Source: Cytophagaceae bacterium | GTDB lineage: Bacteria; Bacteroidota; Bacteroidia; Cytophagales; Spirosomataceae | Length of the DNA: 64,000 bases | Direction of reading: 5' to 3' | Assembly: GCA_027486845.1 (NCBI GenBank) | Contig: JAIXOL010000038.1 | Coordinates: forward strand, 1-64,000 | Shown here: piece after piece, positions 3,050 to 55,884 of the stretch | Position numbering within the stretch: position 1 is the stretch's first letter | How the letters are laid out: each line of letters opens with the position of its first letter | Notes under the pieces: generated by a model | The model's database searches: none | Seen by the model: the letters and a program-made list of their open reading frames with translations, nothing else | Told to the model about the DNA's origin: nothing | Translations under genes and position numbers: made by a program

Positions 3050-3103
3050 ATTTAATAAGATGCATTTTGTTATAGCGTTTTATCGTGCAAGGTCTTAAAT
3101 TTA
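3044..3103. other. Long imperfect inverted repeat after the epimerase
   Basis: CCTAAATTTAATAAGA overlapping the stop codon pairs with TCTTAAATTTAGG about 35 bases later. There is no T-run, so it is not a classical terminator. It could be a processing or stability hairpin at the 3' end of the epimerase message. Confidence 0.35.
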
Positions 3104-3168
3104 GGATTCAAAAGGATTGTTTTGGAACTTTAATTTTAGGTTTTTAATTTTGTCCTATTGTAATAAGT

Positions 3169-4029: not shown

Positions 4030-4032
4030 ATA

Positions 4033-33883: not shown

Positions 33884-34474
33884 ACTAAGCTCCAAAGCGG
33901 AGAAATTCGCTTAGGTAATGTTTTGCTCGAAAATATCAGCCACAAACTTTGGCGTAGCAAATGTGGAACGGTTATGCAAGAAGGGGTTATTTTCTCAGAT
34001 ACTATTGCAGAGAATATTGCTTTCAGCGATGAATTTCCAGATACTAAAAAGCTACTTCATACAGTAAAAGTAGCTAATATTCAGCCATTTATTGAAGAAT
34101 TACCATTGAGTTATAACACAAAAATTGGAGCGGAAGGAAATGGAATTTCACAAGGTCAAAAACAAAGATTATTGATTGCCCGTGCCGTTTATAAGAATCC
34201 TGATTTTATATTTTTCGATGAAGCTACCAACGCACTTGATGCCAATAATGAAAGTGTTATCATGGCAAATTTAGAAGAATTCTTTAAAAGCGGTTCGACG
34301 GGTCGAAGGACTGTAATTGTAGTAGCACACCGACTAAGCACCGTAAAAAATGCTGACCAAATTGTAGTTATGGAAAAAGGAGAAATTGTAGAAGTTGGAA
34401 CTCATGCCGAACTCACGCAAAGACACGGAAAATATTTTGAGTTAGTGAAAAATCAGTTAGAATTAGGGAGTTAA
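33884..34474 (+). pseudogene. 3' fragment of a peptide-exporter ABC ATPase
   Basis: Only the second half of a nucleotide-binding domain remains. It opens KLQSGEIRLGNV, then has the Q-loop (GTVMQEGVIFSD), signature ISQGQKQRLLIARA, Walker B FIFFDEATNALD and the H-loop VVAHRLSTV, through to a normal C-terminus. Walker A, the membrane domain and any peptidase domain are gone; two stop codons lie just upstream. The sequence type (IAENIAF, WRSKCG) matches C39-peptidase ABC exporters of Bacteroidota, like the intact exporter nearby on the other strand, but it is not a copy of that gene's end. The coding frame from 33923 is open, but the product could not hydrolyse ATP. Confidence 0.85.
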
Positions 34475-34881
34475 ACACCCAAAATGTTGATTTTCAACGA
34501 AGTATGATTTTTTATTAGTTTGAAATCTGATTGGTTAAAAGTGTAAAGTTCTTGGCAATGTGTTTCAGCAATAGCAGTATGCAAACAATCATTGATATTT
34601 TGAAAGCCTACTTTTTGACATAAAGTAGCTGCTCTTTTGAAGTTCTCAAAAGAATAATTGATTGGGTTGAATTCATACAACTGAGAAACTTTCTCATCAA
34701 TCTCAAATCGTTCCAATTCAAATTTTGTCAAAACGAAAGCTATCTCTTGGAGATTCAACAATGAAATAAATACTTTTTTATCAAAATTAGCTTTTTCAAA
34801 GGTTTTTCTAACCAAAAGGTGCTTTTTCCTATCTTGAATTACAAAATAATGAATCAAGAAATCAGTATCAAAATAAATCAT
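34471..34881 (-). CDS. PIN-domain toxin (VapC-like ribonuclease)
   Basis: 136 aa. First acidic residue in IYFDTDFLIHYF; then LNLQEIAFVL and, near the end, NINDCLHTAIAETH with the conserved Asp, and a final FNQSDF. This is the PIN arrangement of a Mg2+-dependent RNase. Its start overlaps the upstream 79-aa gene by 4 bp, as in type II toxin-antitoxin pairs. Its 3' end overlaps the convergent ABC fragment by 4 bp. Confidence 0.82.
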   Translation of the reverse strand: MIYFDTDFLIHYFVIQDRKKHLLVRKTFEKANFDKKVFISLLNLQEIAFVLTKFELERFEIDEKVSQLYEFNPINYSFENFKRAATLCQKVGFQNINDCLHTAIAETHCQELYTFNQSDFKLIKNHTSLKINILGV

Positions 34882-35117
34882 ATTACGTTGTCATTCACTT
34901 GTTTAATTAAAGTATTAATATCAATGTCCTTTGATATAACTTTCGGTGGATATTTTTTATTGAGTGCCTCCAGTTTTTTGAAAATTTCATACTGATTTAC
35001 AGGAGGATTTATCTCCTCAATTTTAATACTAATCTCTTTATTTTTAAAGAGTTTTTGAAAAGCCTCAAAGAAACTGTAATCAATTTCATTGGCATTGAGT
35101 ATATAAGTAGTTTGCAT
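34878..35117 (-). CDS. Antitoxin partner of the PIN toxin (79 aa)
   Basis: A short protein whose N-terminus (TYILNANEIDYSFFEAFQKLFKNKEISIKIEE) looks like the beta-strand/helix opening of a Bacteroidota antitoxin. The C-terminal part is Lys-rich and probably wraps the toxin. Identified mainly by position: directly upstream of and overlapping the PIN gene. Confidence 0.7.
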   Translation of the reverse strand: MQTTYILNANEIDYSFFEAFQKLFKNKEISIKIEEINPPVNQYEIFKKLEALNKKYPPKVISKDIDINTLIKQVNDNVI

Positions 35118-35597: not shown

Positions 35598-36737
35598 ATG
35601 TTAAAGGCTTTTAAATTTGAAATAAATCCTACTATGGAGCAAAAAACGCTACTAAACAAAACGTTTGGTTGTGTTAGATTTGCCTATAATTGGGGTTTAA
35701 ATGAAAAGACAAAAGCCTATCAAACTGACAAGTCAAAAGTTTCATGCTTTGAATTGATTAACCAAATCACCTTGCTAAAAAAACAAGAAGAATTTGTATG
35801 GTTAAATGAAATTCACTCGCAACCATTGCAAATGGCAATGAGGAATTTGGATAATGCTTTCACTAATTTTTTCAATAAAAGAGGAGAATTCCCTAATTTC
35901 AAAAAAAAATCAAATAATCAAAGTTTTCAATATCCTCAAGGTGTAAAGCTAAAAGATAACCAAGTGTTTTTGCCAAAAATTGGCTGGACGCATTTCTACA
36001 AATCAAGAGAATGTTTTGGAGAAATAAAAACGGTAACTGTTTCAAAAACACCCACAAATAAGTATTTTGTTTCAATTCTGTGCGAAACATCTATTGAAAA
36101 GCCTACTAAAAAACCTATTGAGGATAAAACTTCTCTTGGTATTGATGTAGGAATTAAAACGTTTGCTGTTTGTTCTGATGGTCAAGTATTTGAAAACCAA
36201 AAATATTTGAGCAAAAGTCTTAAAAACCTAAAAAAAGAACAAAGAACACTTGCAAGACGTTACAAAAAAGGGGTCAAAATTGTCGAACAAAGCAAAGGCT
36301 ACCACAAGCAAAGAATGGTAGTTGCTAAATTGCATGAGAAAGTTAGTAATCAACGAAATGACTTTTTGCATAAAGTTTCTACAAAATTGGTTAATCAATA
36401 CGATTCAATCATTGTAGAAGACTTAAATGTGAAATGTATGATGAAAAACGACAAACTTTCAAAAGCAATAAGTGATGTTAGTTGGACTAAATTTAATACT
36501 TTTTTGCAATATAAATGCGAATGGCAAGGTAAAAACTACATTCAAATCGGACGTTTTGTTCCAAGTTCTAAGATGTGCAACCATTGCGGACACATCAACA
36601 AAGAATTAAAACTAAAAGACCGTGAATGGACTTGTCAAGAATGTCAAAGAACTAACGATAGAGATTTCAACGCATCTCTTAATATTAAATCATTCGGGTT
36701 GGGGACACAGCCCAAAATCCATAACGTGAGCCATTAG
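35598..36737 (+). CDS. tnpB: TnpB RNA-guided nuclease
   Basis: 379 aa, full length. An N-terminal OrfB_IS605 helix-turn-helix region (FEINPTMEQKTLLNKTFGCVRFAYNW) is followed by the split RuvC domain: LGIDVGIKTFAV (Asp), IIVEDLNVKCM (Glu), and NDRDFNASLNI (Asp). Between them lies an intact zinc ribbon (CNHCGHINKE...WTCQECQ). All three acidic residues and four Cys are present, so it is predicted active. The omega RNA should overlap the gene's 3' end and run to the element's right end. Confidence 0.93.
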   Translation: MLKAFKFEINPTMEQKTLLNKTFGCVRFAYNWGLNEKTKAYQTDKSKVSCFELINQITLLKKQEEFVWLNEIHSQPLQMAMRNLDNAFTNFFNKRGEFPNFKKKSNNQSFQYPQGVKLKDNQVFLPKIGWTHFYKSRECFGEIKTVTVSKTPTNKYFVSILCETSIEKPTKKPIEDKTSLGIDVGIKTFAVCSDGQVFENQKYLSKSLKNLKKEQRTLARRYKKGVKIVEQSKGYHKQRMVVAKLHEKVSNQRNDFLHKVSTKLVNQYDSIIVEDLNVKCMMKNDKLSKAISDVSWTKFNTFLQYKCEWQGKNYIQIGRFVPSSKMCNHCGHINKELKLKDREWTCQECQRTNDRDFNASLNIKSFGLGTQPKIHNVSH

Positions 36738-36789
36738 GCTGTGCGTGGGTTTTAGAATCTCACTCCCTTTAGGGGTGAGAGTATGTCAA
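36660..36789 (+). ncRNA. Predicted omega RNA (reRNA) scaffold at the TnpB element right end
   Basis: By analogy with characterised TnpB elements, the RNA covers the tnpB 3' end and the right-end structure (CTCACTCCCTTTAGGGGTGAG at 36760-36780) and stops at TCAA. The guide is then the next ~16-20 bases of host DNA. Here these (from 36790, AACTCCACTTTCCAG...) are the last codons of the exporter gene. The 5' end of the RNA cannot be fixed from sequence. Confidence 0.55.
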
Positions 36790-38880
36790 AACTCCACTTT
36801 CCAGAATATATACTTTATCAGCCAATAATGCTGTTTGTGTGCGGTGAGTGATAAAAATTACAGCCATTTCATCTTTTATGTTTTTCAATACCTGTAAAGC
36901 AAACGCTTCGGTGCGTTTGTCCATCCCCGATGTAAATTCATCTAAAAACAACACTTGCGGTTTTTGATAGATAGCTCTTGCCAGTGCAACCAACTGCTGC
37001 TGTCCACCCGAAAGATTTACGCCTTCTTCACCAATAATTGTCAAGTAACCTTGTGGAAGTGAAAAAAAGTAATTATCAAATCCCAGTTTTTGGCAAAACT
37101 CCATCACTTGTTGGTATTCTTCTTGCACATTGCCTAAGCAAATATTATCAAGTAATGTTCCATTGAAAATCTTTATTTGCTGTGGTACAACGGCCATAAT
37201 ATTACGCCATTGTTCGGTAGATAATTCGTCCCATTGATAATTTTGCTGGCTTGTTTTGACAGTTATTTGTCCACTTTCTGGTTGGTAAAACTTTTGTAAA
37301 ATTTGCATCAAGATACTTTTTCCAGAGCCAACTTCACCTTGTATTGATACGACTTCACCTTTACTGACTTTAAGTGAAATATCTTTGAGCAATTGAGGAC
37401 GACCCGCAAAACGAAAGGTTAAATTTTTGATGTTAATTGATTTAAAATCAAGCTTTGCTGCCTCTTCTTGTTTCTCATATTCGGGTTTTAAGCTGGCAAA
37501 TTCAAACATGCGGTCGAAAGCAACTTTGGCTTGTTGGAGTTGAATATTAGTGGCGGAAAGTCGAGCGATTGCTCCAAATAGTCCACTCGAAATGCCTATG
37601 ATTGCCATCATTTCGCCAACTAAAATTTGTTTATGTAGTACCATATATGAGCTGTAACCAATCATCAGAACCACCAAAATACTATTGAAAATATCAGCCC
37701 ACATAGCATATCTGTTGGCCAAAATACTTAAATCGTAGATAGTTTTTTGAAATAGCATATAAATATGCTTGGTAATGAGCGAAAAGAAACCTTCTTTTCC
37801 TGCACTTTTGATGGTAGAAATACCGCTGATGGAGTCAACATAATGGCTTTCGGTGCGGGCATAGGCGGCCATTACTTGTTGCTGGTGCTGAATAATAGGT
37901 TTATTGAACTTCCATAACAGCCACCCAAACATCGGAAAAGCGATTAGTGAAATTCCGCCCGCAACAAATGAATACTTGAATAGAAATACCAATGAAGCAA
38001 TCAAAACCAAAACATCAATCACTACGCTACCAATTAGGTAACTCACTACCGATTGAATATTTCGGGTATCGTTCATGCGTGCGGTTAATTCGCCTACACG
38101 TCGAGTATCAAAGAAAGATTTTGGCAACCATAAAATAGCATCATAGAATTTATCGACCATTCGGCTATTCAAATCTCGGGCTTGGCGAGTAAGGAAAAAT
38201 CCACGAATATAGCCCAAACCTGACTTGACGAGTAAAAGAATTGCCAATAGTGAAATACCCCAAAGTAATTTATTGGTTTTGTGCGATGGCAGAATATCAT
38301 CAATTAGTTTTTGCGAAAAAATGGCAGTAGAAAGATTCAAAACAGCAATGATAACGCCTAAAATAGCCGCTATTATGAGCAAATTTGTATCTTCTTTCAA
38401 AAGCGTTTTTACCCATTCTATTTTACGCTTCGATTGTGTTTCGACAACTACAAACTTTTCGTTGGGTATCAACTGTAAAAGTACTTTCGATTGCCAAATC
38501 TCGTCCAATTCATCTCGGCTGAGTTCAATTATTCCTTTGGCTGGGTCGCCAATAATATATCGTCCGTTTTTTATGCCATAAAGAACCACATAGTGCTGTA
38601 ATCTTTCGTCGATTAATACATGTAAAATTGCAGGAAATTGAGTTTCTGAAAGGTTTTCAATCGCTTCAACCTCAAAAGCTTCGGAGTCGAAGCCTAAAGT
38701 TTGAGCTGCTTGATGTAAACCCAATAGAGAAGTTCCTTGTAGCGATGTACCGCTCATTTCTCGGAGACTTTCGAGCGAATTATCGCCCCCATAAAAACGG
38801 ATAACAGAAAGTAAGCACGCCACGCCACAGTCTTTGGCGTCGTGCTGACGAGTAAAACTCGCCAAAGTTTTTTTGTTCAT
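36769..38880 (-). CDS. C39-peptidase ABC exporter (PCAT), 3' end replaced by IS sequence
   Basis: 703 aa. Residues ~1-140 are a C39 peptidase: RQHDAKDCGVACL (catalytic Cys), HYVVLYG (His), GDPAKG (Asp). A six-segment membrane domain follows, then an ABC ATPase with Walker A GEVGSGKS, signature LSGGQQQLVALARA, Walker B VLFLDEFTSGMD and FITHRTQ. This class cleaves double-glycine leaders and exports the peptide. The last codons (LTYSHP, stop) are encoded by the right end of the TnpB element. The native end is displaced to 35381-35419, about a dozen codons. All motifs are intact, so activity may be kept. Confidence 0.93.
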   Translation of the reverse strand: MNKKTLASFTRQHDAKDCGVACLLSVIRFYGGDNSLESLREMSGTSLQGTSLLGLHQAAQTLGFDSEAFEVEAIENLSETQFPAILHVLIDERLQHYVVLYGIKNGRYIIGDPAKGIIELSRDELDEIWQSKVLLQLIPNEKFVVVETQSKRKIEWVKTLLKEDTNLLIIAAILGVIIAVLNLSTAIFSQKLIDDILPSHKTNKLLWGISLLAILLLVKSGLGYIRGFFLTRQARDLNSRMVDKFYDAILWLPKSFFDTRRVGELTARMNDTRNIQSVVSYLIGSVVIDVLVLIASLVFLFKYSFVAGGISLIAFPMFGWLLWKFNKPIIQHQQQVMAAYARTESHYVDSISGISTIKSAGKEGFFSLITKHIYMLFQKTIYDLSILANRYAMWADIFNSILVVLMIGYSSYMVLHKQILVGEMMAIIGISSGLFGAIARLSATNIQLQQAKVAFDRMFEFASLKPEYEKQEEAAKLDFKSINIKNLTFRFAGRPQLLKDISLKVSKGEVVSIQGEVGSGKSILMQILQKFYQPESGQITVKTSQQNYQWDELSTEQWRNIMAVVPQQIKIFNGTLLDNICLGNVQEEYQQVMEFCQKLGFDNYFFSLPQGYLTIIGEEGVNLSGGQQQLVALARAIYQKPQVLFLDEFTSGMDKRTEAFALQVLKNIKDEMAVIFITHRTQTALLADKVYILESGVLTYSHP

Positions 38881-38958
38881 TTCTTGTGTGGATTTAGAAT
38901 TTAGATTAGACTTTACTGAGTACTAATACTGCAAATATTTAATAGCCAGATGATTATG

Positions 38959-39477
38959 TTATTGGTTAATGAGTTTCAATATAGCTTCAATCTTGGTTTC
39001 TCCCTTGTATTGTTTGAGCAGTTCGCCTTCTTTATTATAAATAAAAATCGTCGGGAAACTCGAAATGCCAAATTGTTTGCTGCTCTCAATGGCTTCCATG
39101 TGAGCAAATTTGATATTTGAATATGCCGTTAGTTGATATTTCGTAGCAAATTTTTTGACGTTTTCGAGAGGTTCGACCGAGATAAAAGTCATTTGGGTTT
39201 TCTCAAAATCAGCTATGTGCTTTTTTATGTTGGCCGCTTCGTTTTGGCAATGCTCGCACTCAGTATTGAAGAATACCAACACTTTAAAAAAGTTATTGCT
39301 GTTTTCGATTGTAAACGATTTGCTATCAAGACCTTTTACTTGAGTAGCGGGCAGTTTTTTTGTGTTTTTTGCCACAACTTTCTTGTTTTCCATTTTTCGA
39401 TAAATCATCGAAACCAGAAATGTTGATACGCCGATGAGAGCCAAAAAGAATGCAAGTTTTAGGATAGTTTTTTTCAT
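38959..39477 (-). CDS. Membrane-anchored thioredoxin-like protein (TlpA/AhpC-TSA type)
   Basis: 172 aa with one N-terminal transmembrane segment (KLAFFLALIGVSTFLVSMIY) and a periplasmic thioredoxin fold: VLVFFNTECEHCQNEA (CxxC is CEHC) and SSFPTIFIYNKEG with the cis-Pro. It lies 78 bp upstream of the C39 exporter on the same strand. Likely handles disulfides or Cys thiols of exported peptides; two of the three double-glycine peptides carry at least two Cys in the core and the third has two as well. Confidence 0.85.
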   Translation of the reverse strand: MKKTILKLAFFLALIGVSTFLVSMIYRKMENKKVVAKNTKKLPATQVKGLDSKSFTIENSNNFFKVLVFFNTECEHCQNEAANIKKHIADFEKTQMTFISVEPLENVKKFATKYQLTAYSNIKFAHMEAIESSKQFGISSFPTIFIYNKEGELLKQYKGETKIEAILKLINQ

Positions 39478-39509
39478 ATTTTTAAAAGTTTGTGTGGAAT
39501 AAAGAATAT

Positions 39510-40847
39510 CTACTCGCCTCTCAGCACACTAAAAATAGCGTAACGTAAGTGCTGTTTTTGACGAATTTCTTTTTGAATATAATAAAATAGAATGATGGCA
39601 ATAATTAGTACTGGGAAAAGCACCCAAATGAAGTTTTTGAGAGCTGATAACACTATCACGATTGTCATGGATAATAGTATGCTCCAACCACTCACTTTGC
39701 TTTTCATTTCGGTAAAACTAACGCCCGAATCAATGACAAGTGGCTTGTAGTAAGTAAAGACAAGTCCGTTGGTTAGTAATAATATTGTTGCTGAAAAATA
39801 GAAAAGTATAAGGTTTAGGTCTAATTTATGAGAAAATAATAAAATAATGAGTGTTAATGTAAAGTCGATAAGTATCGGGATTGCAAGAATTTGAAGGTAT
39901 TTTTCAAATGTTGAGGTCGATTTATTAACAGAAGTATTTAGCCAGATTGTTGGAAAAAATCCCCAAACATTATTAGCCATATAATTGAAAATAACCAACG
40001 GAGAGATATACAGTAACCAAACAAATTCACCAAAAAATACACCTTTAAACATAGGGTTTGTTGTCGTAAAAACCGTAAAAGCAGTTTTTAAAATTAACTG
40101 TGTAAAATACCCACTTCGTGATTTTGGATTTTTGATAAATGCCCAATAAATAGCTGGAACGGCAGAATTTGTAACAAAATTATAAGAAAACCGATTTGCC
40201 GAAGTACCCACAATGTTTTTTTCGAGAAAAATCGAACAAACTACTTGAAACAACAAACCAATAGCAAGAAAAGCCAATACCCAAAATGAGTCAAATTTTA
40301 TTAAAACAATTACAAACGCCACAACAAATGCCAGCCAAATCCATTTGACATTCTTTAGTCGGTGGTTTTCTTCGATAAAAGTTTTGAGCAAGTATAAAAA
40401 TAAATAGGTATTGAAAAAGAATAAGAGCGATATGAGTAAATCGAGCGAAGTATAAACTTTTGAAACAACATCTATCAAAATAAGCGAACTAACAAAAGCT
40501 AAATTAGTTGGTTTGAAAAAGTCATAGATAATATTAACAAGCCATCTTTTTGTGGCATTTACAGCATAAATTTTTGGGATAACCCTCGAACGGTTTTTGT
40601 AAGCTGGAAAAAACTCAAACAAAACCATCATTATGCCATAAGCAAATAGAATATAGTTTTTTACAAGCTTAATATCAATTTTTGTTTCATCCGACTCTTC
40701 AATCAAATCTAACATAAAGCCAATCATTGCTCCGTAGAAAACCACAAAGGCGATATAAACAATATTTAAGATTAATTTAAATGTTGATTCGGCATTTTTG
40801 AAGAATGATAATATCTTTCGTTTAAGGGCAAAAACAAGTATTTCCAT
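39510..40847 (-). CDS. ABC-2 type permease-like membrane protein
   Basis: 445 aa with about 10-12 hydrophobic segments and no soluble domain. It begins 1 bp after the stop of the ABC ATPase gene, so it is almost certainly its permease partner. The sequence itself carries no strong family motif that I recognise (it resembles Bacteroidota proteins annotated as ABC permease in bacteriocin or antibiotic export/immunity loci). Confidence 0.75.
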   Translation of the reverse strand: MEILVFALKRKILSFFKNAESTFKLILNIVYIAFVVFYGAMIGFMLDLIEESDETKIDIKLVKNYILFAYGIMMVLFEFFPAYKNRSRVIPKIYAVNATKRWLVNIIYDFFKPTNLAFVSSLILIDVVSKVYTSLDLLISLLFFFNTYLFLYLLKTFIEENHRLKNVKWIWLAFVVAFVIVLIKFDSFWVLAFLAIGLLFQVVCSIFLEKNIVGTSANRFSYNFVTNSAVPAIYWAFIKNPKSRSGYFTQLILKTAFTVFTTTNPMFKGVFFGEFVWLLYISPLVIFNYMANNVWGFFPTIWLNTSVNKSTSTFEKYLQILAIPILIDFTLTLIILLFSHKLDLNLILFYFSATILLLTNGLVFTYYKPLVIDSGVSFTEMKSKVSGWSILLSMTIVIVLSALKNFIWVLFPVLIIAIILFYYIQKEIRQKQHLRYAIFSVLRGE

Positions 40848-40848
40848 A

Positions 40849-41598
40849 TCAAATCCAGTCGAAAGCTGCGGTTTTAGATTGAGGAACTAATAAATTGAAT
40901 AGGGCATCGTCAATAACTTTTGTGCCATTTGAGGTGAAATCTTCTATTTTCCCATCAAATTTGATAGCAGATTCATCCAATACCAAAATTCTATTGGCTA
41001 TTTTTTGTACATAAGCCAAATCGTGGGAAGCTATCAGAATGATTCGGTCATTTTTTCGATAAATCTCAATAAAAGCAATGAGTTGTTTAACGGCAATAGG
41101 GTCTAAACCCGCAAAAGGTTCATCAAGTAAAAGCACCGATGGGCGATGCAACACCGCTCCACAAAGAGCAATTTTTTTTTCCATACCCGTTGAATAATCG
41201 CTGATTTTCTTTATCAAGACATCGGGTTCATCAAAGAAAAACGCAATCATTTCGTTGGTGCGTTTCTTGAAATCATCTTTCTTGAGTTGGTGCAAATGGC
41301 TTAAAAACTCCAAATATTCGTAACCAGTAAACTCTGGTATGGGCGGCACAACATCTGATAAAACTCCCAAGTCTTGCTTGAAATTCATGCGTTCGCCTTC
41401 GAGCAGGGCGTCATTATAGAAAAATTTGCCAGTATCGGGTTCAACCAAATCAATTAGACAATTCAGAAATGTGGTTTTTCCAGCACCGTTTTTGCCCAGC
41501 AAACCAATTACATCACCACCTTCAAAAGCGAGATTGATATTGTTCAGAACGGTCTTATTGCCGTATCTTTTGGTCAAATTTTCTATAATAAGATTCAT
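40849..41598 (-). CDS. ABC transporter ATP-binding protein
   Basis: 249 aa, one ATPase domain: Walker A GLLGKNGAGKTTFLN, Q-loop region, signature YSTGMEKKIALCGAV, Walker B VLLLDEPFAGLDP and IASHDLAYV. This is the CcmA/natural-product immunity-type ABC-A ATPase. The signature is STGME where LSGGQ is usual, normal in this subgroup. It is sandwiched between two membrane protein genes with 1-2 bp gaps. Confidence 0.93.
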   Translation of the reverse strand: MNLIIENLTKRYGNKTVLNNINLAFEGGDVIGLLGKNGAGKTTFLNCLIDLVEPDTGKFFYNDALLEGERMNFKQDLGVLSDVVPPIPEFTGYEYLEFLSHLHQLKKDDFKKRTNEMIAFFFDEPDVLIKKISDYSTGMEKKIALCGAVLHRPSVLLLDEPFAGLDPIAVKQLIAFIEIYRKNDRIILIASHDLAYVQKIANRILVLDESAIKFDGKIEDFTSNGTKVIDDALFNLLVPQSKTAAFDWI

Positions 41599-41600
41599 GT

Positions 41601-42254
41601 TTAAGAGTTATTGATGTTAAGAAAAATAATAAAGACTAACCATACAATTAAACCCGTTCCATAGGATAGTGAAACTAATTTCATTGATTTCCAAAAATCA
41701 ATTTCAACATTCTTTTTTAGTAGGAATGTCAAAATAAATAAAAATATAATTTCAAATAGATTCAGGGTTTGAAGTGGATAAATTAACCACGGTTCAATAG
41801 TCGATTTATCAAGAACACTTAGTAATGATAGTGGATAAAAACTTTGAAAATCAGAAAAAGTATATTCAAAAAACGAAAAGTATAAGATTTTAATAATTGA
41901 AGGTATTAAAAAGACTAAGTCTGCTTTTATTACAATAGTTAGTAAATCTCTAAATTGTATTTTTTTCTCCATACTACAAAAAAATAATCCAGCATGTAGG
42001 CATAAACCTATTATTAATATTTTTAGACTATATAGGATAATAAGGAATATGTAACTTAACCAACTCCACTCATGTCTCATTTCAAGCATTTTCTCTATGG
42101 TTTCAAAAGATGATTGTTCAGAATAAAAATGAAAAATAAGGTTATCTGTCAAAAAAAACTCATTAACGGCATAGGCAATAATTAAGCTAATTATAATGTT
42201 AAAAACAAAGAAAATAATACCTCTATTATTTGATTCTTGATAAATTGCTTTCAT
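41601..42254 (-). CDS. Polytopic membrane protein (217 aa)
   Basis: Five or six hydrophobic segments (FFVFNIIISLIIAYAVNEFF, YIFLIILYSLKILIIGLCL, etc.). No family recognised. It ends 2 bp before the ABC ATPase gene and is the first gene of a three-gene operon with it and the permease. It may be a second transporter subunit or an immunity protein. Confidence 0.75.
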   Translation of the reverse strand: MKAIYQESNNRGIIFFVFNIIISLIIAYAVNEFFLTDNLIFHFYSEQSSFETIEKMLEMRHEWSWLSYIFLIILYSLKILIIGLCLHAGLFFCSMEKKIQFRDLLTIVIKADLVFLIPSIIKILYFSFFEYTFSDFQSFYPLSLLSVLDKSTIEPWLIYPLQTLNLFEIIFLFILTFLLKKNVEIDFWKSMKLVSLSYGTGLIVWLVFIIFLNINNS

Positions 42255-42331
42255 ATACTTTCTGATTTTTAATTGGAAATAAATTAAATATTCAATAGGT
42301 ATTGATTATAGTTTTAGAATGTTAAAAAAAA

Positions 42332-42502
42332 TTAGTTTTCACTTTTAGGTTTATTTAATAATACTATAAACCCTGTAATAATAAATAATAAGAAGGGTAA
42401 AGTTTTAATAAACTTTGTCCCCTCAATAAAGTAAAAGAAATAGGCTGCTCCAGCATTTAATCCAATAAAAAGCGATGCGATTAATTTTGTTTTATTTTTC
42501 AT
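42332..42502 (-). CDS. Small two-helix membrane protein (56 aa), candidate immunity protein
   Basis: The frame starts at ATG 42502: MKNKTKLIASLFIGLNAGAA, a second hydrophobic segment LPFLLFIITGFIVLL, and a polar tail NKPKSEN. It lies between a double-glycine peptide gene and the 217-aa membrane protein, all on the minus strand. Small two-helix proteins in this position are often bacteriocin immunity proteins. That is inference from context only. Confidence 0.6.
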   Translation of the reverse strand: MKNKTKLIASLFIGLNAGAAYFFYFIEGTKFIKTLPFLLFIITGFIVLLNKPKSEN

Positions 42503-42568
42503 TTTATTTGTGATTTATTAAACTACTTAGGTGATATATCGCCTAAGTAGTTTATTTGTTAAAAAAAA

Positions 42569-42787
42569 TTAATGAGTACTGTCATAAATACAGGCAGCTA
42601 ATGATGCACAAGAAAGTCCTGCCCCAAATCCAGTTATAAAAGCACTTCCCATAGCTGCGGCAGTTCCAGTAACAGGATTTGTAAACAGCAATGCAATTCC
42701 TGCAACACCCAAAACACACCCAGCACCATCCGCTACACATCCACCACCACTTAATTGATACATTTGATTTAAATTTACTTTTTCCAT
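42569..42787 (-). CDS. Double-glycine leader peptide 1 (bacteriocin-like, 72 aa)
   Basis: I start it at ATG 42787 (leader MEKVNLNQMYQLSGG); a longer frame to 42832 adds residues that do not look like a leader. Cleavage is expected after LSGG. The core of ~57 residues begins GCVADGAGCVLGVAGIALL and is rich in Gly/Ala with small-residue spacing (GTAAAMGSAF, GFGAGLS) and four Cys. It resembles membrane-inserting class II bacteriocin cores. It would be processed by the C39 exporter at 36769-38880. Confidence 0.85.
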   Translation of the reverse strand: MEKVNLNQMYQLSGGGCVADGAGCVLGVAGIALLFTNPVTGTAAAMGSAFITGFGAGLSCASLAACIYDSTH

Positions 42788-42978
42788 TTTTTTGTTGTGT
42801 TTAAAAAGTTTTAAATTAACTAATTTATTCAAAATCAGACTCTTGATAGCTTAAATCTTACTTCTTCGTGCAAACTACTTTTTTTCATTATTAGCCTGTT
42901 GTGTGTGGTCGGCTCTGGTTTTCGTGTTTCACTTAGGCTCAGAAATTAGCTTTTAAAAGCCTGATGATTTGACGAATT

Positions 42979-43122
42979 TTACATACAAGATGACTGATAT
43001 GATGAAATCAAGCCACCTAATTGTCCTGAGCCTGGAATCATTGCTGCTCCTGAAATCATTGCTAATAATGCAGTACAGTTACTGCCACCATTGATTTTTT
43101 CTAAGTTGTGTATTTTTTTCAT
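42979..43122 (-). CDS. Double-glycine leader peptide 2 (47 aa)
   Basis: Starts at ATG 43122. The leader is MKKIHNLEKINGG, cleavage after GG. The core of 34 residues begins SNCTALLAMISGAAMIPGSG and ends SSCM, with two Cys, one near each end, that could form a disulfide or thioether ring. The upstream 50 bp (43131-43180) closely matches the region upstream of peptide 3. It falls below common gene-calling length limits. Confidence 0.82.
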   Translation of the reverse strand: MKKIHNLEKINGGSNCTALLAMISGAAMIPGSGQLGGLISSYQSSCM

Positions 43123-43130
43123 TTGGTTTT

Positions 43131-43180
43131 GCGTTTCGTCGAGTCGTCGCCACGATTTTTAAAAGTTGTGAAAAATTAAA
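43131..43180 (-). repeat. Shared 5' leader repeat upstream of peptide 2
   Basis: The minus strand reads CACAACTTTTAAAAATCGTG, then GCGACGACTCGACGAAACGC before the peptide 2 ATG. The same layout recurs at 43344-43385 before peptide 3. Confidence 0.75.
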
Positions 43181-43190
43181 AGTTATTTTC

Positions 43191-43334
43191 TTACAAATAT
43201 CCTCCGCCTAAAATAGGGAAAGGTAGTGTTGGGAAAAAGATGGTTGGTCCAGTTACTGGGCAATCAAAAGAACTGCTTGGTGCTAAGCAGCCACCTGAAA
43301 TTGATGCTAATTTTGTTGTTGTGAGATTTTTCAT
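43191..43334 (-). CDS. Double-glycine leader peptide 3 (47 aa)
   Basis: Starts at ATG 43334. The leader is MKNLTTTKLASISGG, cleavage after GG. The core of 32 residues begins CLAPSSSFDCPVTGP and ends PILGGGYL: two Cys near its start, then a Pro/Phe-rich hydrophobic part. It is unlike the other two cores, so the three peptides share leaders and exporter but not mature structure. The Ser/Thr-rich beginning would suit glycosylation or dehydration. Confidence 0.82.
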   Translation of the reverse strand: MKNLTTTKLASISGGCLAPSSSFDCPVTGPTIFFPTLPFPILGGGYL

Positions 43335-43343
43335 TTTGTTTTT

Positions 43344-43385
43344 GCGTAAGTCCGTCGCCACGTTTTTTTAGTTGTGAAAATTAAA
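43344..43385 (-). repeat. Shared 5' leader repeat upstream of peptide 3
   Basis: The minus strand reads CACAACTAAAAAAACGTG, then GCGACGGACTTACGCAAAAA before the peptide 3 ATG. Conserved with 43131-43180, so either the cassette was duplicated or the leader carries a regulatory element. Confidence 0.75.
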
Positions 43386-43547
43386 TTATATGTAAAGTTG
43401 TGTGAATACTTAGTTTTTCTACCCAATCATCGCTGTAAGATATTGATAGTTTTTTGCTCATTTTTGCTAAATTTTTGTTGTTTTTAAGTGAATTTAGTAC
43501 AGTTTCTATTGATTTTGTCGTATTGAGGCGATGTTGTAACCCTAACT
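43381..43547 (-). pseudogene. C-terminal remnant of a second GT1 glycosyltransferase
   Basis: A frame different from that of the upstream gene reads ELGLQHRLNTTKSIETVLNS then KNNKNLAKMSKKLS and ends at TAA 43381. It aligns with the end of the intact glycosyltransferase (GAGTKADLKDSKDTILDAIK, YKEKVLEMSLLF). So a tandem second copy once lay here and was deleted apart from its tail, which now overlaps the stop of the intact gene. Confidence 0.65.
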
Positions 43548-44888
43548 CAAATTGGCAAAATGGTGAGTACTTAAAATCTCTTCTAAAAAATTATCATGAT
43601 ACTTCTCATTAAATAAGAGACTCATTTCTAAGACTTTTTCTTTATATTGTTTATTTAAGATTATCATTTTTATTGCATCCAAAATTGTGTCTTTTGAGTC
43701 TTTTAAATCTGCTTTCGTGCCAGCACCATGATAAACCACCCTTGCTGCCGTACCATTTTGGTCCCATTTATCATTTAATGGAAAAAGAAGCATTGGTGTT
43801 GCACTGTATATAGCTTCAAATACTGACCCTGGACCCGCATGTGTCAAAAATAAATCGGATTTTTTGAGAATATCCATTTGTGGAGCAAAGTCTAAAAATA
43901 AAAGGTTTTTAGATTTACTCTTAAATTTCATACGCATATCCTTTTCTAATGCCACCAAAAAATATAAATGGGGGTTCTCAAATGCAATTTCAATAATATT
44001 GTTAAAAAACGAATCTATCCCACCTTTTCTATGAGTTAAATGAGTTTTTAAGACAGTACCCAAAGAACAATAAATTAATTTGTGGTCTTCTGAACTTTCT
44101 TTTATTTGGATAAAATTCAAGTAGGTTGAACTTAAATTTTCTTTACGATTTTTATCAATCATTGGCCCAATGTAGCGTTGCCATTGAAAAAGTGATTGTT
44201 CTTTAAAATCTAATTCTTTCGGAATTAAAAACCATTCCTCCACATTTTTAAAGGTTGGTTTGAAAGTCTTATCTATATTAATTTGAAAATCATGAGGAAT
44301 ACCTTGTTCTCTAAACTTTTGTTTTAGCAAGCTCAAATCGCTTTTACCTAAATACTTTATATTTTCTAATAGCAACGTCCACCTCTTCTTTCTTAAATAT
44401 TTTTTCCAAAGATATGCTGCATCTTTATTTGGAAAAGCAAATGTATTTAATGGTGGAACTAATGCATTATAATACATCGGAAATTTGGTTTGAAGTATTA
44501 TTAATCTTCGTTTCTCAAGAAAAGGATAAAGTATTATAAAATCTGAATAATTAAATTCATCTAAAAAGATTAAATCAGGATTTAAGTCATTGATAAGTTT
44601 TTCTAAATCGTTTTTCCTAAGCTTGTAAAGATTATCAGTATATCTATCAACTAAACTCTCTAACCATTTTTCATTCTGATTTTCATGCAAAAGGTCATCA
44701 AAACCACTTGCAAAGGTTAATGATTGTAATGCATAATGATTAAAATCATGTTTCTGAGTAAAAGGTATTAAATCCGTAAGCCCACAGTAGAAGATATTGA
44801 AACCTTCTTTTTTATAGAAATCAGCAAGTTTAATCGTAGGATTTAAATGTCCTGTGAGGTTTGAGAAAAGGAATATAGCTGTTTGCAT
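43542..44888 (-). CDS. GT1-family (UDP-glycosyltransferase-like) glycosyltransferase
   Basis: 448 aa, GT-B fold. The N-terminus (IFLFSNLTGHLNPTIKLADFY) is the MGT/UGT acceptor domain opening. The donor domain has YCSLGTVLKTH and the UDPGT-type signature THAGPGSVFEAIYSATPMLL followed by FPLNDKWDQN. Enzymes of this kind glycosylate small hydrophobic molecules or natural products. It lies just upstream of the three double-glycine peptides on the same strand, with a remnant of a second copy behind it. A tailoring role on a secreted product is therefore plausible but unproven. Confidence 0.85.
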   Translation of the reverse strand: MQTAIFLFSNLTGHLNPTIKLADFYKKEGFNIFYCGLTDLIPFTQKHDFNHYALQSLTFASGFDDLLHENQNEKWLESLVDRYTDNLYKLRKNDLEKLINDLNPDLIFLDEFNYSDFIILYPFLEKRRLIILQTKFPMYYNALVPPLNTFAFPNKDAAYLWKKYLRKKRWTLLLENIKYLGKSDLSLLKQKFREQGIPHDFQINIDKTFKPTFKNVEEWFLIPKELDFKEQSLFQWQRYIGPMIDKNRKENLSSTYLNFIQIKESSEDHKLIYCSLGTVLKTHLTHRKGGIDSFFNNIIEIAFENPHLYFLVALEKDMRMKFKSKSKNLLFLDFAPQMDILKKSDLFLTHAGPGSVFEAIYSATPMLLFPLNDKWDQNGTAARVVYHGAGTKADLKDSKDTILDAIKMIILNKQYKEKVLEMSLLFNEKYHDNFLEEILSTHHFANLS

Positions 44889-45097
44889 GGATTTGGAAAT
44901 GTTACTTTAATATTGAAAAACTCAATTGCTTGCATCAGAAATACTGAAAAATACTGCGAAATTGATTTATTAGAGTTTTGATGCGTTGGTTTATTGGCAT
45001 CGTTTACCGTGCAAGAATGCTCAACCATTCCGAATCCTACACAAATTTGAAAACTTAAACATAAAATAAGTGTCTGAATCAATCTTAATTTTTTCAT
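44843..45097 (-). CDS. Small exported protein, possibly truncated (84 aa)
   Basis: N-terminal signal-like segment (LIQTLILCLSFQICVGFG), then EHSCTVNDANKP and a second hydrophobic stretch (YFSVFLMQAIEFF). It overlaps the upstream TonB-type barrel by 4 bp and the downstream glycosyltransferase by 46 bp. The large overlap and Bacteroidota relatives that carry a longer Cys-rich domain after an H-x-C motif suggest the 3' part was replaced when the glycosyltransferase region joined. Low certainty. Confidence 0.5.
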   Translation of the reverse strand: MKKLRLIQTLILCLSFQICVGFGMVEHSCTVNDANKPTHQNSNKSISQYFSVFLMQAIEFFNIKVTFPNPCKQLYSFSQTSQDI

Positions 45098-48920: not shown

Positions 48921-49652
48921 TTATTGTTTTCTCCCTACTTCATTTATCATCGAAAGAAATTTGTCTTTATAAGTAATGCCTATCGGGATTTTCGTCTCTT
49001 TTTTATCGGTTCGTATCACGACTTCATTGCCATCAATGCCTACAATTCTGTCGAATGCAATAATGTGTGATTTATGAATACGAATAAATTGCGGTTCGGG
49101 CAGAGCCTCTTCTACTTCTTTGAATGTCAGTAAACCTAAAATCAAACCGCTACTTTGGGTATGAAAACCAATGTAGTTTCGCATACCTTCTACATGGATG
49201 ATGTCTTCGAGTTTAATTCTAAGCATTTTTCCCTTATTCTCCACTTTTATAAAAATGCTTGATTTTTCGGGACTAGCAGAAGGTATAGGGGCAGCCTGTA
49301 TATTTTCGGAGACAGCTTTCTGAGTAGCTTTCATGAAACGCTCAAACGAAATAGGTTTTAGTAAATAATCTAAAACACCTTCCTCAAAAGCTTCAATAGC
49401 ATAATCAGAGTAGGCAGTCGTAAAGATAACTTTCGATTTGTCTTTGAGCATCTTCACTACTTGAGGCCCCGAAAGTTCATCCATGTGAATATCCAGAAAA
49501 ATCAGGTCTGGATTGTAAGAATTTATATAATTAAGCCCTTCGATGGGGTCAGTTGTATAAAATGCAAGGTTTAAGTAAGGAACTCTACCAATATAGGTCT
49601 TAATTAATTCGATTGCGTGAGTTTCATCATCAATTATAATACAGCTTAACAT
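48921..49652 (-). CDS. LytTR-family response regulator
   Basis: 243 aa. An N-terminal receiver domain has the phospho-acceptor Asp in PDLIFLDIHMDELSG, the switch Thr/Ser region KVIFTTAYSDYAIEAF and LLKPISFERF. The C-terminal LytTR DNA-binding domain (IKVENKGKMLRIKLEDIIHV then FIRIHKSHIIAFDRIVGIDG) follows. It lies 10 bp downstream of its histidine kinase. Confidence 0.95.
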   Translation of the reverse strand: MLSCIIIDDETHAIELIKTYIGRVPYLNLAFYTTDPIEGLNYINSYNPDLIFLDIHMDELSGPQVVKMLKDKSKVIFTTAYSDYAIEAFEEGVLDYLLKPISFERFMKATQKAVSENIQAAPIPSASPEKSSIFIKVENKGKMLRIKLEDIIHVEGMRNYIGFHTQSSGLILGLLTFKEVEEALPEPQFIRIHKSHIIAFDRIVGIDGNEVVIRTDKKETKIPIGITYKDKFLSMINEVGRKQ

Positions 49653-49662
49653 TGTTGTAAAT

Positions 49663-50688
49663 TTATAGTTTTTTAATGGTTAGTACGGTATAGAAAAAAG
49701 TTTCATCAGCAGAAGTTTCGAGCGTAAAACGATTTTCGAGCAGCAAAGATAAACGTCTTTTTAAATTTTCAAGCCCAATTCCCGTTGAATTACTGATTTT
49801 GGCTGTGTGTGTCATATTTTTCAAGGACACATATAATGTATTATTCTCGGCTTTGATAAGAATATCTAAAGGGGAGAGTTTAAGATTTCCGTGTTTAAAG
49901 GCGTTTTCTACAAGTGTAAGAATACATAAATGGGGAATTCGGTAAGTACTCAAATCACCCTCGGTTTTGAAATTGATGAGGAGTTTTTCGTTGAAACGTA
50001 ATTGATTGAGATGAATATAGCTCTCTACATATTTTATTTCTTCCGACACAGCGATAAGAGATTTTTGCTCATGTGAAACCGAAAACCGCATCAACTCCGA
50101 CAATGATAATATCCCCTCTGCCAAAGTATCAGAATACTTCATAGCATTAGAATAAAACATATTGAGCATATTATAAATAAAGTGCTGATTAATTTGAGAT
50201 TTCAGAAAAGACACTTCTATTTCATGATTGCGTTGTTCGAGAGCGAGTTTTACTTGGGATTGTTTTTGTGTATGCTTGTAGAACCAATAAAGAGTTCCCA
50301 ACGAGCCAAATGTAATAATATGGTGGATATAAGTTAATAAAAATGATAATAAATGCTTATTGTATTCTGGGGTTTGGTAATTAGGGAATCTTATTTTAGT
50401 TACCCAGAGCCTTAAATAAAGAATCAAATAAAAAACAATAATTATTGTAATTAAAATGAATACCCCTTTGATTATCTCTTTTTTATCCCAAAAATGAGGG
50501 AATAATATGAAATAAAATGAATAGACTAAAAAAATTTTTGCTGAGGATAAAATTAAAAAATCATCAATGTCAGGAACTATGCCATTGTATATTGAAATCA
50601 TCATTCCAGAAGATAATAAGAGATAGATTAGCCATAAACTAATATGCATCAATACTTCTTTGATTTTCTCTTTATTCGTTAAATTCAT
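49663..50688 (-). CDS. LytS/YehU-type sensor histidine kinase
   Basis: 341 aa. Four N-terminal transmembrane segments with no extracellular sensor domain, then a His_kinase domain with the phospho-His in LKSQINQHFIYNMLNMFYSN (Gln where Pro is usual) and an ATPase domain with LVENAFKHG and GIGLENLKRRL. It is paired with the LytTR regulator and divergent from the barrel gene at 50785. It may sense a secreted peptide or envelope state. Confidence 0.93.
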   Translation of the reverse strand: MNLTNKEKIKEVLMHISLWLIYLLLSSGMMISIYNGIVPDIDDFLILSSAKIFLVYSFYFILFPHFWDKKEIIKGVFILITIIIVFYLILYLRLWVTKIRFPNYQTPEYNKHLLSFLLTYIHHIITFGSLGTLYWFYKHTQKQSQVKLALEQRNHEIEVSFLKSQINQHFIYNMLNMFYSNAMKYSDTLAEGILSLSELMRFSVSHEQKSLIAVSEEIKYVESYIHLNQLRFNEKLLINFKTEGDLSTYRIPHLCILTLVENAFKHGNLKLSPLDILIKAENNTLYVSLKNMTHTAKISNSTGIGLENLKRRLSLLLENRFTLETSADETFFYTVLTIKKL

Positions 50689-53243: not shown

Positions 53244-53372
53244 ATGAAGTCCCAAAACTTGAAATTATCCTTAAACAAAACAACGATTACAAAGTTAAAT
53301 GACAGTGTAATACTCAAAAAGATGCTAAATTCACGTAGAGATTGTGATTCTGTTAATGGACATTGCATGTAA
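53244..53372 (+). CDS. Class I lanthipeptide precursor peptide (42 aa)
   Basis: The frame at 53244 begins MKSQNLKLSLNKTTITKLND, the leader pattern of Bacteroidota class I lanthipeptides (LxLNKxTIxxLND). The C-terminal core, about SRRDCDSVNGHCM, has two Cys and two Ser that could form (methyl)lanthionine bridges. It is followed by a hairpin and then lanC and a broken lanB. It has no GG motif, so its leader would be removed by another protease. Confidence 0.8.
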   Translation: MKSQNLKLSLNKTTITKLNDSVILKKMLNSRRDCDSVNGHCM

Positions 53373-53392
53373 AATCAATTTTTTAAAAGTTA

Positions 53393-53410
53393 AAGCCCCG
53401 AATGGGGCTT
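53393..53410 (+). terminator. Hairpin between the lanthipeptide precursor and lanC
   Basis: AAGCCCC-gaat-GGGGCTT, 7-bp perfect stem, 20 bp after the precursor stop codon. A T-rich tail follows. Such intergenic hairpins often let the precursor be transcribed in excess over the modification enzymes. Confidence 0.75.
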
Positions 53411-53510
53411 ACTTTTATACTTCATCATCATCAAACTCAATTTCGTCCATAATTTTTTAACCTTAACCTAAACCCACATAAATTCACACAAATTATGAAA
53501 CAAGATATCT

Positions 53511-54680
53511 ATGAAATTTATCATCAACAATTATCTAACAAAACTTCAGAATGCCATTGATAATATTACTTACGAAAACGATACTCTTTTCGGAGGTAAA
53601 ATAGGGGCTATTTGGCAGGAGTATCATTTATGGCAAGCCACTAACGACAGAAAACATAAAGAAGAAGCTAAACAATTTATCAACGAAATCTTTGAAGATT
53701 TAAATAATGATAATCCGAAGTTTTTTGGTGCAAGTTATAGTGGTGGGGCGGCAGGCTTTTGCTATGTCGTTACGATGCTCAAAAAATACAATTTCTTAGA
53801 AATAGCATTAGATGAAGATTTAGCAGATTTAGACGAATACTTATACGAATCTGCCCTGCAATTCATTAATGAGCGAAATTTAGATTTTTGGCATGGGACT
53901 TTTGGCATCGTTTTCTATTTTTTAGAACGATTAGATAATCCCATAATTAGAAAAAATGCCAAAATATTGATTGAGAAAACCCTCGAAAAAGCCATTATTT
54001 CAGATGAAGGCTTGTGGTTTCCGAGCATTATGTCAGATAAAGATGAGGGTATTATCAACTTTAGTCTTTCGCATGGGCAAACAGCCTTTTTAATAATTTT
54101 GATGAATGCTTATAACAAAGGCTTGTGTAAAGAGATTATTCCCGAAATCATCAGACAAGGCACCGATTTTATCATGTCGCATTTTGAACAAACTGATTTT
54201 GATAATAATAAATACTCTTATTTTCCATTAAAAATCAATGAAGCAACGGGCGTAAAAAACTTTTCAAACCGTTTGGCTTTTTGCTATGGCGACCTCAATA
54301 TTGTGCTTTTGCTTTATCACGCAAGTGAGTTTTTGGGTGACCCTATGCTGAAACAAAAAGCCGACCTTTTGGGGCTTTCTACATTGATGCGTAAAGACGA
54401 AAAAACAACAATGGTAACCGATGCACATTTTTGTCATGGCTCGGCAGGTGTCGCTCAATTTTATAAAACATTCCATCGGCTCACTGGCATTGAAGCCTAT
54501 TACAGAGGCTATGAATATTGGCTCGACCGAACACTGGCTTTTACAGATGAGGCTCTCCAAAAAGATACTTTTGGAGAAGAAAAAGGTTCTTTATTGAATG
54601 GATACGTAGGCGTTAGTTTGGTTTTTCTGAGTTATGTTTCTAAAGAAAAGTTAAGTTGGGAAAAAATGTTTTTGCTTTAA
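53511..54680 (+). CDS. Lanthionine synthetase C-like cyclase (LanC family)
   Basis: 389 aa. An alpha/alpha barrel with the LanC landmarks: SGGAAGFCYVV, DFWHGTFGIVFYF, NFSLSHGQTAF, LAFCYGDLNIVLLL (first zinc Cys) and AHFCHGSAGVAQF (second Cys and the adjacent His). Adds Cys thiols to dehydrated Ser/Thr to make lanthionines. It starts at ATG 53511. It is followed 2 bp later by the remains of the dehydratase gene. Confidence 0.92.
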   Translation: MKFIINNYLTKLQNAIDNITYENDTLFGGKIGAIWQEYHLWQATNDRKHKEEAKQFINEIFEDLNNDNPKFFGASYSGGAAGFCYVVTMLKKYNFLEIALDEDLADLDEYLYESALQFINERNLDFWHGTFGIVFYFLERLDNPIIRKNAKILIEKTLEKAIISDEGLWFPSIMSDKDEGIINFSLSHGQTAFLIILMNAYNKGLCKEIIPEIIRQGTDFIMSHFEQTDFDNNKYSYFPLKINEATGVKNFSNRLAFCYGDLNIVLLLYHASEFLGDPMLKQKADLLGLSTLMRKDEKTTMVTDAHFCHGSAGVAQFYKTFHRLTGIEAYYRGYEYWLDRTLAFTDEALQKDTFGEEKGSLLNGYVGVSLVFLSYVSKEKLSWEKMFLL

Positions 54681-54682
54681 TT

Positions 54683-55810: not shown

Positions 55811-55811
55811 G

Positions 55812-55884
55812 TGGTGATGGACGGGATCGAACCGCCGACACAAGGATTTTCAGTCCTTTGCTCTACCAACTGAGCTACATCACC
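55812..55884 (-). tRNA. tRNA-Phe (anticodon GAA)
   Basis: On the minus strand: acceptor stem GGTGATG/CATCACC with discriminator A, D-loop AGCTCAGTTGGTAGAGC, anticodon loop ACTGAAAAT (GAA), T-loop GGTTCGATCC. All cloverleaf stems close. CCA is not encoded. A translated open frame across this region is spurious. Confidence 0.97.

Follow-up and report, generated by a model that had tools for sequence, protein, structure and literature searches.

The export layout and its closest described relatives

Among described systems, the bacteroidetocin loci come closest to the gene set considered here, which occupies positions 36769-44888 of a 64,000-nucleotide stretch of DNA from a Cytophagaceae bacterium (the window; contig C24 of a 5.36-Mb draft genome) and combines a C39-peptidase exporter and short peptides with a family 1 glycosyltransferase (GT1). 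Bacteroidetocin loci encode a protein with five transmembrane (TM) segments, a peptide with a double-glycine (GG) leader, a thiol oxidoreductase and a C39-type exporter; these four genes suffice for toxin production in E. coli, and deletion of the TM or the oxidoreductase gene attenuates the activity, with neither gene protecting a sensitive strain (Coyne et al., 2019; PMC6671954). The window shares this four-gene layout and the Bacteroidota host, since an exporter, a thiol oxidoreductase and a membrane protein of 217 amino acids (aa), hereafter P217, stand beside its peptide genes. We consider it probable that the locus is a class II-type bacteriocin operon in which a GT1 has joined the bacteroidetocin export layout, and that its several peptides are closed by disulfides and probably glycosylated.

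An earlier reading made from the sequence alone (the sequence-only reading) had placed all of these genes on one strand, and every one of them was recovered at its place and on the minus strand. From 5' to 3' the order is GT1, pepC, pepB, pepA, a hairpin, a 56-aa gene, P217, an ATP-binding cassette (ABC) ATPase, a 445-aa gene, the thioredoxin and the C39 exporter; the P217, ABC and 445-aa genes are separated by 1-2 bp, and 32 bp follow before the thioredoxin gene. The features are listed below, with loci of other genomes denoted by L and a number throughout.

43542..44888, minus strand: GT1 glycosyltransferase (UDPGT/macrolide-glycosyltransferase-like, GT-B fold), 448 aa, proposed peptide glycosyltransferase (PF00201, conserved residues, AlphaFold2, recurrence beside C39 and GG peptides)
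43191..43334, minus strand: pepC, ISGG GG-leader peptide, 47 aa (leader profile 28.5 bits; TIGR01847 16.5 bits)
42979..43122, minus strand: pepB, INGG GG-leader peptide, 47 aa (position, leader like that in L052, upstream region like that of pepC)
42569..42787, minus strand: pepA, LSGG GG-leader peptide, 72 aa (leader profile 25.6 bits; core type as elsewhere)
42519..42554, no strand: strong hairpin in the interval between pepA and the 56-aa gene (-18.2 kcal/mol, z -7.1; inverted repeat I15)
42332..42502, minus strand: 56-aa membrane protein, candidate small immunity protein (sequence; similar-sized counterparts elsewhere)
41601..42254, minus strand: P217, 217-aa membrane protein, five long helices modelled (alignment; AlphaFold2, predicted local distance difference test, pLDDT, 92)
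40849..41598, minus strand: ABC ATPase, likely immunity or efflux with the 445-aa protein (PF00005, 79.4 bits)
39510..40847, minus strand: polytopic membrane protein of 445 aa, probably the permease that pairs with the ABC ATPase (adjoins it elsewhere; retention)
38959..39477, minus strand: membrane-anchored TlpA-like thiol-disulfide oxidoreductase with CEHC (PF00578, PF00085)
36769..38880, minus strand: C39-peptidase ABC exporter, 703 aa (PF03412, PF00664 and PF00005)

The likeness to bacteroidetocins A and B is one of layout, their sequences being absent from the article text searched. That text gives leaders of 15-16 aa and mature peptides of 42-53 aa with at least two Cys; the leaders of pepA and pepC have 15 aa and that of pepB 13, the cores carry four, two and two Cys, and their lengths of 57, 34 and 32 aa fall outside the described range. 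The window goes beyond the bacteroidetocins in its GT1, the pair formed by the ABC ATPase and the 445-aa protein, the 56-aa membrane protein and the presence of three precursors. The whole set had been put forward as a good candidate for an undescribed system; its core layout is already known, and what is new is the GT1, an uncommon addition that has been recruited to this layout repeatedly.

To our knowledge, known glycocins use GT2-type (SunS) enzymes. The term GT2 does not appear in the article consulted on glycocins, in which sublancin, glycocin F and Thg likewise combine a glycosyltransferase, a C39 exporter, a thioredoxin-like protein and a Cys-containing GG peptide (PMC12457901), whereas the window enzyme is of the GT1/GT-B type without a GT2 match, the locus adds P217 and the ABC pair, and the host belongs to the Bacteroidota. 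Two-peptide bacteriocins of class IIb likewise come to mind, as L045, L046, L048, L049 and L052 have two hydrophobic Gly-rich cores per operon and an L124 peptide weakly resembles the class IIb lactococcin G-beta (18.2 of 37 bits), but the window-type loci differ in their terminal Cys pairs, few charges, GT1 and Gram-negative hosts. NAI-112 and cacaoidin are lanthipeptide/lanthidin scaffolds, which are not known to have a GG/C39 system. Their ribosomal-peptide clusters also contain dedicated glycosyltransferases (AplG in the former, GT2 and GT4 in the latter). Finally, the novelty is limited because glycosyltransferases (GlyS or unspecified) have already been noted near GG-type precursors in Bacteroidales clusters for ribosomally synthesized and post-translationally modified peptides; these are radical S-adenosylmethionine, LanC or LanM clusters, and the glycosyltransferase family is unnamed in the available part of the text (PMC10352776). 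Among the records listed in our literature search, judged by titles and abstract openings, there was no account of GT1 enzymes in Bacteroidota GG-peptide clusters, which is no proof of absence since subscription journals were mostly outside the search.

The exporter and the membrane thioredoxin, both named before, were confirmed by PF03412 (119.1 bits), PF00664 and PF00005 and by PF00578 and PF00085, respectively. Residues Q12, C18, H96 and D112 of the exporter, which we take to be catalytic, are invariant in eight aligned sequences, and so is the C-x-H-C motif of the thioredoxin (C74, H76, C77) in nine; judged by such residues, the exporter, the thioredoxin and GT1 look active. The 445-aa, 217-aa and 56-aa proteins gave no Pfam match at E<=0.01. 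The model of P217 gave no PDB match at E<=0.001 in a fold search, and by position and topology the protein would be the counterpart of the bacteroidetocin TM protein. P217 matches were found in 28 of 395 genomes of the phylum, 67 of 291 of the order and 26 of 200 of the family, the last search having used a larger alignment. Among 40 P217 loci chosen from the phylum and order matches (L122-L161), 25 have P217, thioredoxin and the C39 peptidase domain together, three more have P217 and C39 without thioredoxin, and the remaining 12 lack the set. Two of these loci are in the genome of the window itself and carry no GT1: L122 (G000:C81:3000-22000), where C39 and P217 are each split over more than one frame, and L123 (G000:C12:59000-78500), where C39 is in a single frame.

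The glycosyltransferase and its genomic company

The assignment of the enzyme to the GT1 type held, with PF00201 at 64.6 bits (cut-off 19.5), PF04101 and PF06722 as the only other Pfam matches and no GT2 Pfam match. Because its score against TIGR01426 (MGT) is 74.8 bits, under the cut-off of 260, it lies outside the curated MGT subfamily; the closest NCBIfam models are those of macrolide and self-immunity glycosyltransferases (MGT, OleI), all below cut-off. In 13 aligned GT1s H14, D110, D116, W375 and D376 are invariant and Q377 is found in at least 90%, and in a wider set of 38 D376 is invariant and H14 and D110 nearly so. We presume H14 to be the catalytic His and WDQ the nucleotide-sugar motif, both of which are present along with the UDPGT domain. 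The AlphaFold2 model (pLDDT 92) has TuUGT202A2, UGT109A1, YjiC, the macrolide glycosyltransferase 2iya and Kcn28 as Foldseek neighbours in the PDB. Kcn28, the kitacinnamycin enzyme, is likewise a GT-B natural-product glycosyltransferase (6j31_B; template-modelling scores 0.70/0.80 to the GT1 model), but its acceptor is the cinnamoyl group on a nonribosomal peptide and not a ribosomal peptide. An 84-aa frame at 44843-45097 with a signal-peptide-like start and no family match overlaps the GT1 start by 46 bp.

Across the 200 family genomes, 26 of which hold 33 P217 loci, a GT1 lies at most 10 kb from 10 of these loci against 0.08 expected. The 10 loci span six genera (g1, g2, g5, g17, g31, g32); one is the window and another is a further P217 remnant at a place already counted, which leaves eight, including one (G086) with a GT1 piece of 152 model positions. 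The combination of GT1, C39 and GG peptides, for which the sequence-only reading had suggested a neighbourhood search, indeed recurs: C39, thioredoxin, P217, a GG peptide and GT1 were seen together in Larkinella, Spirosoma, Flectobacillus, Dyadobacter and Runella, joined by the ABC/445-aa pair in L045-L047 and not in L048, L052, L055, L056 or L196. The GT1 gene stands before the peptides in the window, L045, L048 and L052, after C39 in L055 and L196, between thioredoxin and C39 in L130 and before P217 in L141, varied positions such as are expected of a gene kept for its function, and in several loci it overlaps or abuts production genes. When loci were collected by GT1 sequence only (flanks of at most 10 kb, some ending earlier at contig ends), a C39 peptidase domain was found near 17 of 57, on the GT1 strand in all 17; these are 17 of the 32 loci with a GT1 score of at least 150, as opposed to none of the 25 below. 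Comparison with L048 of Flectobacillus longus gave identities of 64% for GT1, 53% for C39, 39% for P217 and 34% for the thioredoxin. The view that GT1 belongs to one peptide-export system is supported, since other genera too have it in the company of C39, thioredoxin, P217 and GG peptides.

The same figures bear on the possibility that GT1 is a chance neighbour acting on a carotenoid, a lipid or an exopolysaccharide, and the sequence-only reading had conceded that an unrelated lipid or carotenoid role would overturn its proposal. Small lipophilic molecules are the usual substrates of GT1 enzymes, and the region at about 2-23 kb of the window is presumably of polysaccharide type; both would suit such a role. 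The recurrence with peptide-export genes makes it unlikely, and so do the shared strand of all 17 C39 domains and an identity to the L048 enzyme above that of the other operon proteins. We regard the chance neighbour as highly improbable and reject it on the co-location.

A protein of about 100 aa resembling helix-turn-helix (HTH) proteins (weak PF12728/PF08279 matches), possibly a regulator, lies beside GT1 in seven loci (L045 14367-14696, L048 10218-10517, L052 9653-9967, L056 8162-8446; similar in L046, L047 and L049). It is not beside the window GT1, and the match in the genome of the window is on C81.

A quick tree of 66 GT1s (midpoint root, support by the Shimodaira-Hasegawa-like approximate likelihood-ratio test, SH-aLRT, only; locus labels set by hand) places the window enzyme in a group of 35 rows on one side of a branch (SH-aLRT 96). 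This side holds GT1s from bacteroidetocin-type, other GG, lasso and secreted-peptide loci, among them loci of Flavobacteriaceae that encode CCPGW-like peptides (a peptide of L180 scores 27.6 of 80 bits with NF047792) and Dyadobacter loci, of which L183 has VKOR, C39 and thioredoxin fused together and PF25342 as a second glycosyltransferase domain. Two lasso GT1s are interspersed with those of GG loci, that of L053 on a long branch. Because the group mixes peptide types in this manner, its common element would be the peptide. Lasso genes are an Asn synthase, PqqD and a transglutaminase in L053 and an Asn synthase in L051, which is outside the tree; the lasso label of L050 rests on a precursor-like frame and a sulfotransferase (PF00685). 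Small signal-peptide-like proteins were seen by eye in L165, L166, L172 and L187, the last a long branch, and DUF4221 was found in L166, the sole locus tested. Other labels are to be read with their basis in mind: L179 is labelled as other GG although it shows no GG peptide, the leaders in L176 and L184 are GG-like but their flanks contain no C39, L163 has peptides and no exporter, L174 and L178 are labelled by a small frame alone, and two rows show no visible peptide. The GT1s of L130, L141 and L159 fall outside the 35 rows and within a set of 42 (SH-aLRT 99).

We tentatively propose, as an idea that may well fail, that the enzymes of this Bacteroidota-wide group glycosylate ribosomal peptides in general, whether bacteroidetocin-type, CCPGW-like, other GG, lasso or signal-peptide-borne, which would make a family of glycosylated, disulfide-closed Gram-negative bacteriocins whose sugar offsets uncharged and very hydrophobic cores.

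Two loci of the tree deserve mention for their gene content. L166 of Thermoflexibacter ruber has three GT1 copies within 12 kb, with small secreted-looking peptide frames nearby, and upstream of each copy lie a gene of 376-410 aa, assigned to DUF4221 in the one case tested, and a lipoprotein-like gene of 154-187 aa. In L053 a Drt3b antiviral reverse transcriptase (2999-5008; NF041748, 755.6 bits) lies near the GT1-bearing lasso cluster.

Peptides, probable immunity genes and the proposed role of the glycosyltransferase

All three predicted GG-leader peptides were recovered, with two revised starts: the LSGG and ISGG frames had been listed from TTG 42832 and GTG 43361, and the downstream ATG codons at 42787 and 43334 are likelier. 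From these, pepA has a 15-aa leader and a hydrophobic, Gly-rich core of 57 aa with Cys at 2, 9, 45 and 51, and pepC has the 15-aa leader MKNLTTTKLASISGG and a Pro/Phe-rich core of 32 aa with Cys at 1 and 10; pepB has a 13-aa leader and a 34-aa core with Cys at 3 and 33. A profile built from 35/36 hand-picked leaders of other genomes, run over six frames of the 64 kb, gave only two sites above the threshold of 8 bits, pepC as the best and pepA, and five simulated order-1 Markov windows gave a single site overall, at 9.4 bits; the leader signal of these two peptides is far above chance. The profile missed pepB, whose leader is two residues shorter. That leader resembles MKKIENLERINGG, a leader in L052, and the region upstream of pepB is 78% identical to that upstream of pepC. 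TIGR01847 accepts the ISGG leader only (cut-off 15.7 bits). Most of the 44 hand-picked cores of P217 loci, those of the window among them, contain two Cys (37 cores); six contain four and a single core just one. Typically one Cys is close to either end, and the core type of pepA recurs in other loci.

Could the peptides instead be signals, exported by a device for communication that makes no bacteriocin? Pheromones use GG leaders too (resemblance to BlpC, 12.2 of 70 bits), and a LytTR response regulator and a histidine kinase are encoded at 48921-50688. However, at 32-57 aa the cores are long, and they are for the most part membrane-like; there are candidate immunity genes, the locus is laid out like proven toxin loci, and a LytTR query in 20 loci matched only weakly (best 4e-06), the matches seen in the Larkinella loci being to a large hybrid kinase. 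We find the signal reading improbable.

The lanthipeptide remnant at 53244-55456 (plus strand) raises another alternative, namely that the exporter and the thioredoxin serve it and that the GG frames are by-products. It consists of a class I precursor (NF038153, 26.7 bits), LanC and a truncated LanB, about 8-10 kb from the GT1 gene. But the LanB frame matches just positions 2-203 of the 649-position N domain and ends there, and two of the three peptide leaders match GG leaders of C39 loci elsewhere; LanC and the truncated LanB (53511-55456) are separate from the operon, which has no LanB, LanC or LanM Pfam match. With LanB truncated and two of the leaders of C39 type, we reject this partnership as barely credible. 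A tRNA-Phe at 55811-55884 follows the remnant and is possibly an island edge.

The sequence-only reading had taken the ABC ATPase, the 445-aa protein and P217 together as a unit for probable immunity or second export, and this needs to be divided. The best NCBIfam scores of the ATPase are to DrrA, GldA and lantibiotic-protection ATPases, all below cut-off, and the 445-aa protein adjoins it in L045-L047 and L060-L063. The latter protein is present in 10 of the 200 family genomes, five of them with P217; a P217 match is absent from the other five (G058, G071, G082, G116, G118), all of which except G118 also lack a GT1 match (G082 has a fragment only, and in G118 the gene is at a contig end). The genes that flank the pair in G071 and G116 are those that flank it in the Larkinella producers L045 and L046, but C39, thioredoxin, P217 and GT1 are missing. 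Such retention is as would be left by loss of production with immunity kept, and it places GT1 with production. An immunity unit of the ABC ATPase and the 445-aa protein is therefore the likelier arrangement, and GT1 looks like a production gene rather than one for immunity. P217 was rejected as a member on the same pattern and on the failure of the bacteroidetocin TM gene to protect. Similar-sized membrane proteins occupy the place of the 56-aa protein in L045, L046 and L048, and the orphan locus L060 keeps two small membrane proteins of the L046 type. In L063 a DUF6625 protein (PF20330), which we take to be a glycosyltransferase, is found where GT1 is missing.

These patterns also bear on a reading in which the bacteriocin is unglycosylated and bacteroidetocin-like, and GT1 protects the producer, either by adding sugar to a target in the envelope or, like macrolide glycosyltransferases, by inactivating the peptide inside the cell. 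The closest NCBIfam models fit this, as does the absence of GT1 from the majority of P217 loci, and the bacteroidetocin target is the outer-membrane protein BamA. On the other hand, the orphan ABC/445-aa loci (full in L060-L062, a fragment in L064) have lost GT1 along with the peptides and the exporter, GT1 overlaps or abuts production genes, its group extends to lasso and other peptide loci, and no glycosidase family is among the Pfam matches of the operon, where three membrane proteins have no Pfam match. Self-protection by GT1 thus appears unlikely.

Under the preferred reading of a glycosylated bacteriocin, three precursors are made with GG leaders of 13-15 aa, and GT1 in the cytoplasm would move sugar from a nucleotide-sugar onto one or more of them. 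The C39 exporter, whose presumed catalytic residues are intact, would cut the leader after GG and export the core, the membrane thioredoxin with P217 would close or isomerise the disulfide between Cys near the core ends, and the ABC ATPase with the 445-aa protein, possibly aided by the 56-aa protein, would protect the producer, as the retention pattern suggests. By analogy with the bacteroidetocins, the released peptides may kill related Bacteroidota. Peptide glycosylation is the leading function of GT1 but unproven.

Several observations weigh against this reading. GT1 is not near 23 of the 33 family P217 loci, and because it is found in only three of the 40 loci L122-L161 (L130, L141 and L159, the last two of one genus) it is an accessory and not a core part. 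Small peptides accompany the GT1 relatives in L163, L165, L166, L172 and L187, but no exporter lies in the flank, and those in L173 and L188-L190 show no peptide. Some loci are damaged: C39 is spread over two or more frames in L046/L170 and L047, and GT1 is split between two frames in L056/L167 and interrupted by a stop in L051. The PDB neighbours of the enzyme are general natural-product glycosyltransferases, and pepC is unlike other cores. Hand-picked cores from loci with GT1 (18) and without it (26) are alike in Ser, Thr, Cys, Tyr and Asn, and comparison of the 44 gave no acceptor motif. Charged residues are fewer in the cores with GT1 (1.8 vs 3.9, p 0.004), in one of 12 tests uncorrected for relatedness and against a set in which some cores, from distant genera, are of quite another kind.

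Only a small number of bacteriocins are known to be glycosylated, and those compared here use other enzyme families and come mostly from Gram-positive hosts. If the proposal is true, a GT1 group that tracks several peptide types represents a new route to peptide glycosylation, and GT1 with C39 and P217 offers a genome-mining handle for environmental Bacteroidota. It would also make it possible to test directly why a sugar-transferring enzyme is present in some bacteroidetocin-type loci and absent from most.

Transcript signals and flanking DNA

Scans of the window for promoters and terminators were uninformative (36 and 6 sites vs 43.5 and 6.8 in shuffles), and an Rfam search returned one tRNA only. 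The hairpin at 42519..42554 is possibly a transcript end or a processing point after the peptide genes.

At the other end of the operon, a gene at 35598-36777, presumably for a TnpB/OrfB-like transposase, has its end some 30 bp away from the C39 gene. Because the hairpin-like CTCACTCCCTTTAGGGGTGAG extends to the C39 stop, the insertion may supply the last codons of the exporter, whose tail is just a few residues shorter than that of the shortest relative. Further along, a partial ABC ATPase domain adjoins a PIN-domain gene and a 79-aa partner frame (33923-34474, 34471-35117), which are likely a toxin-antitoxin pair.

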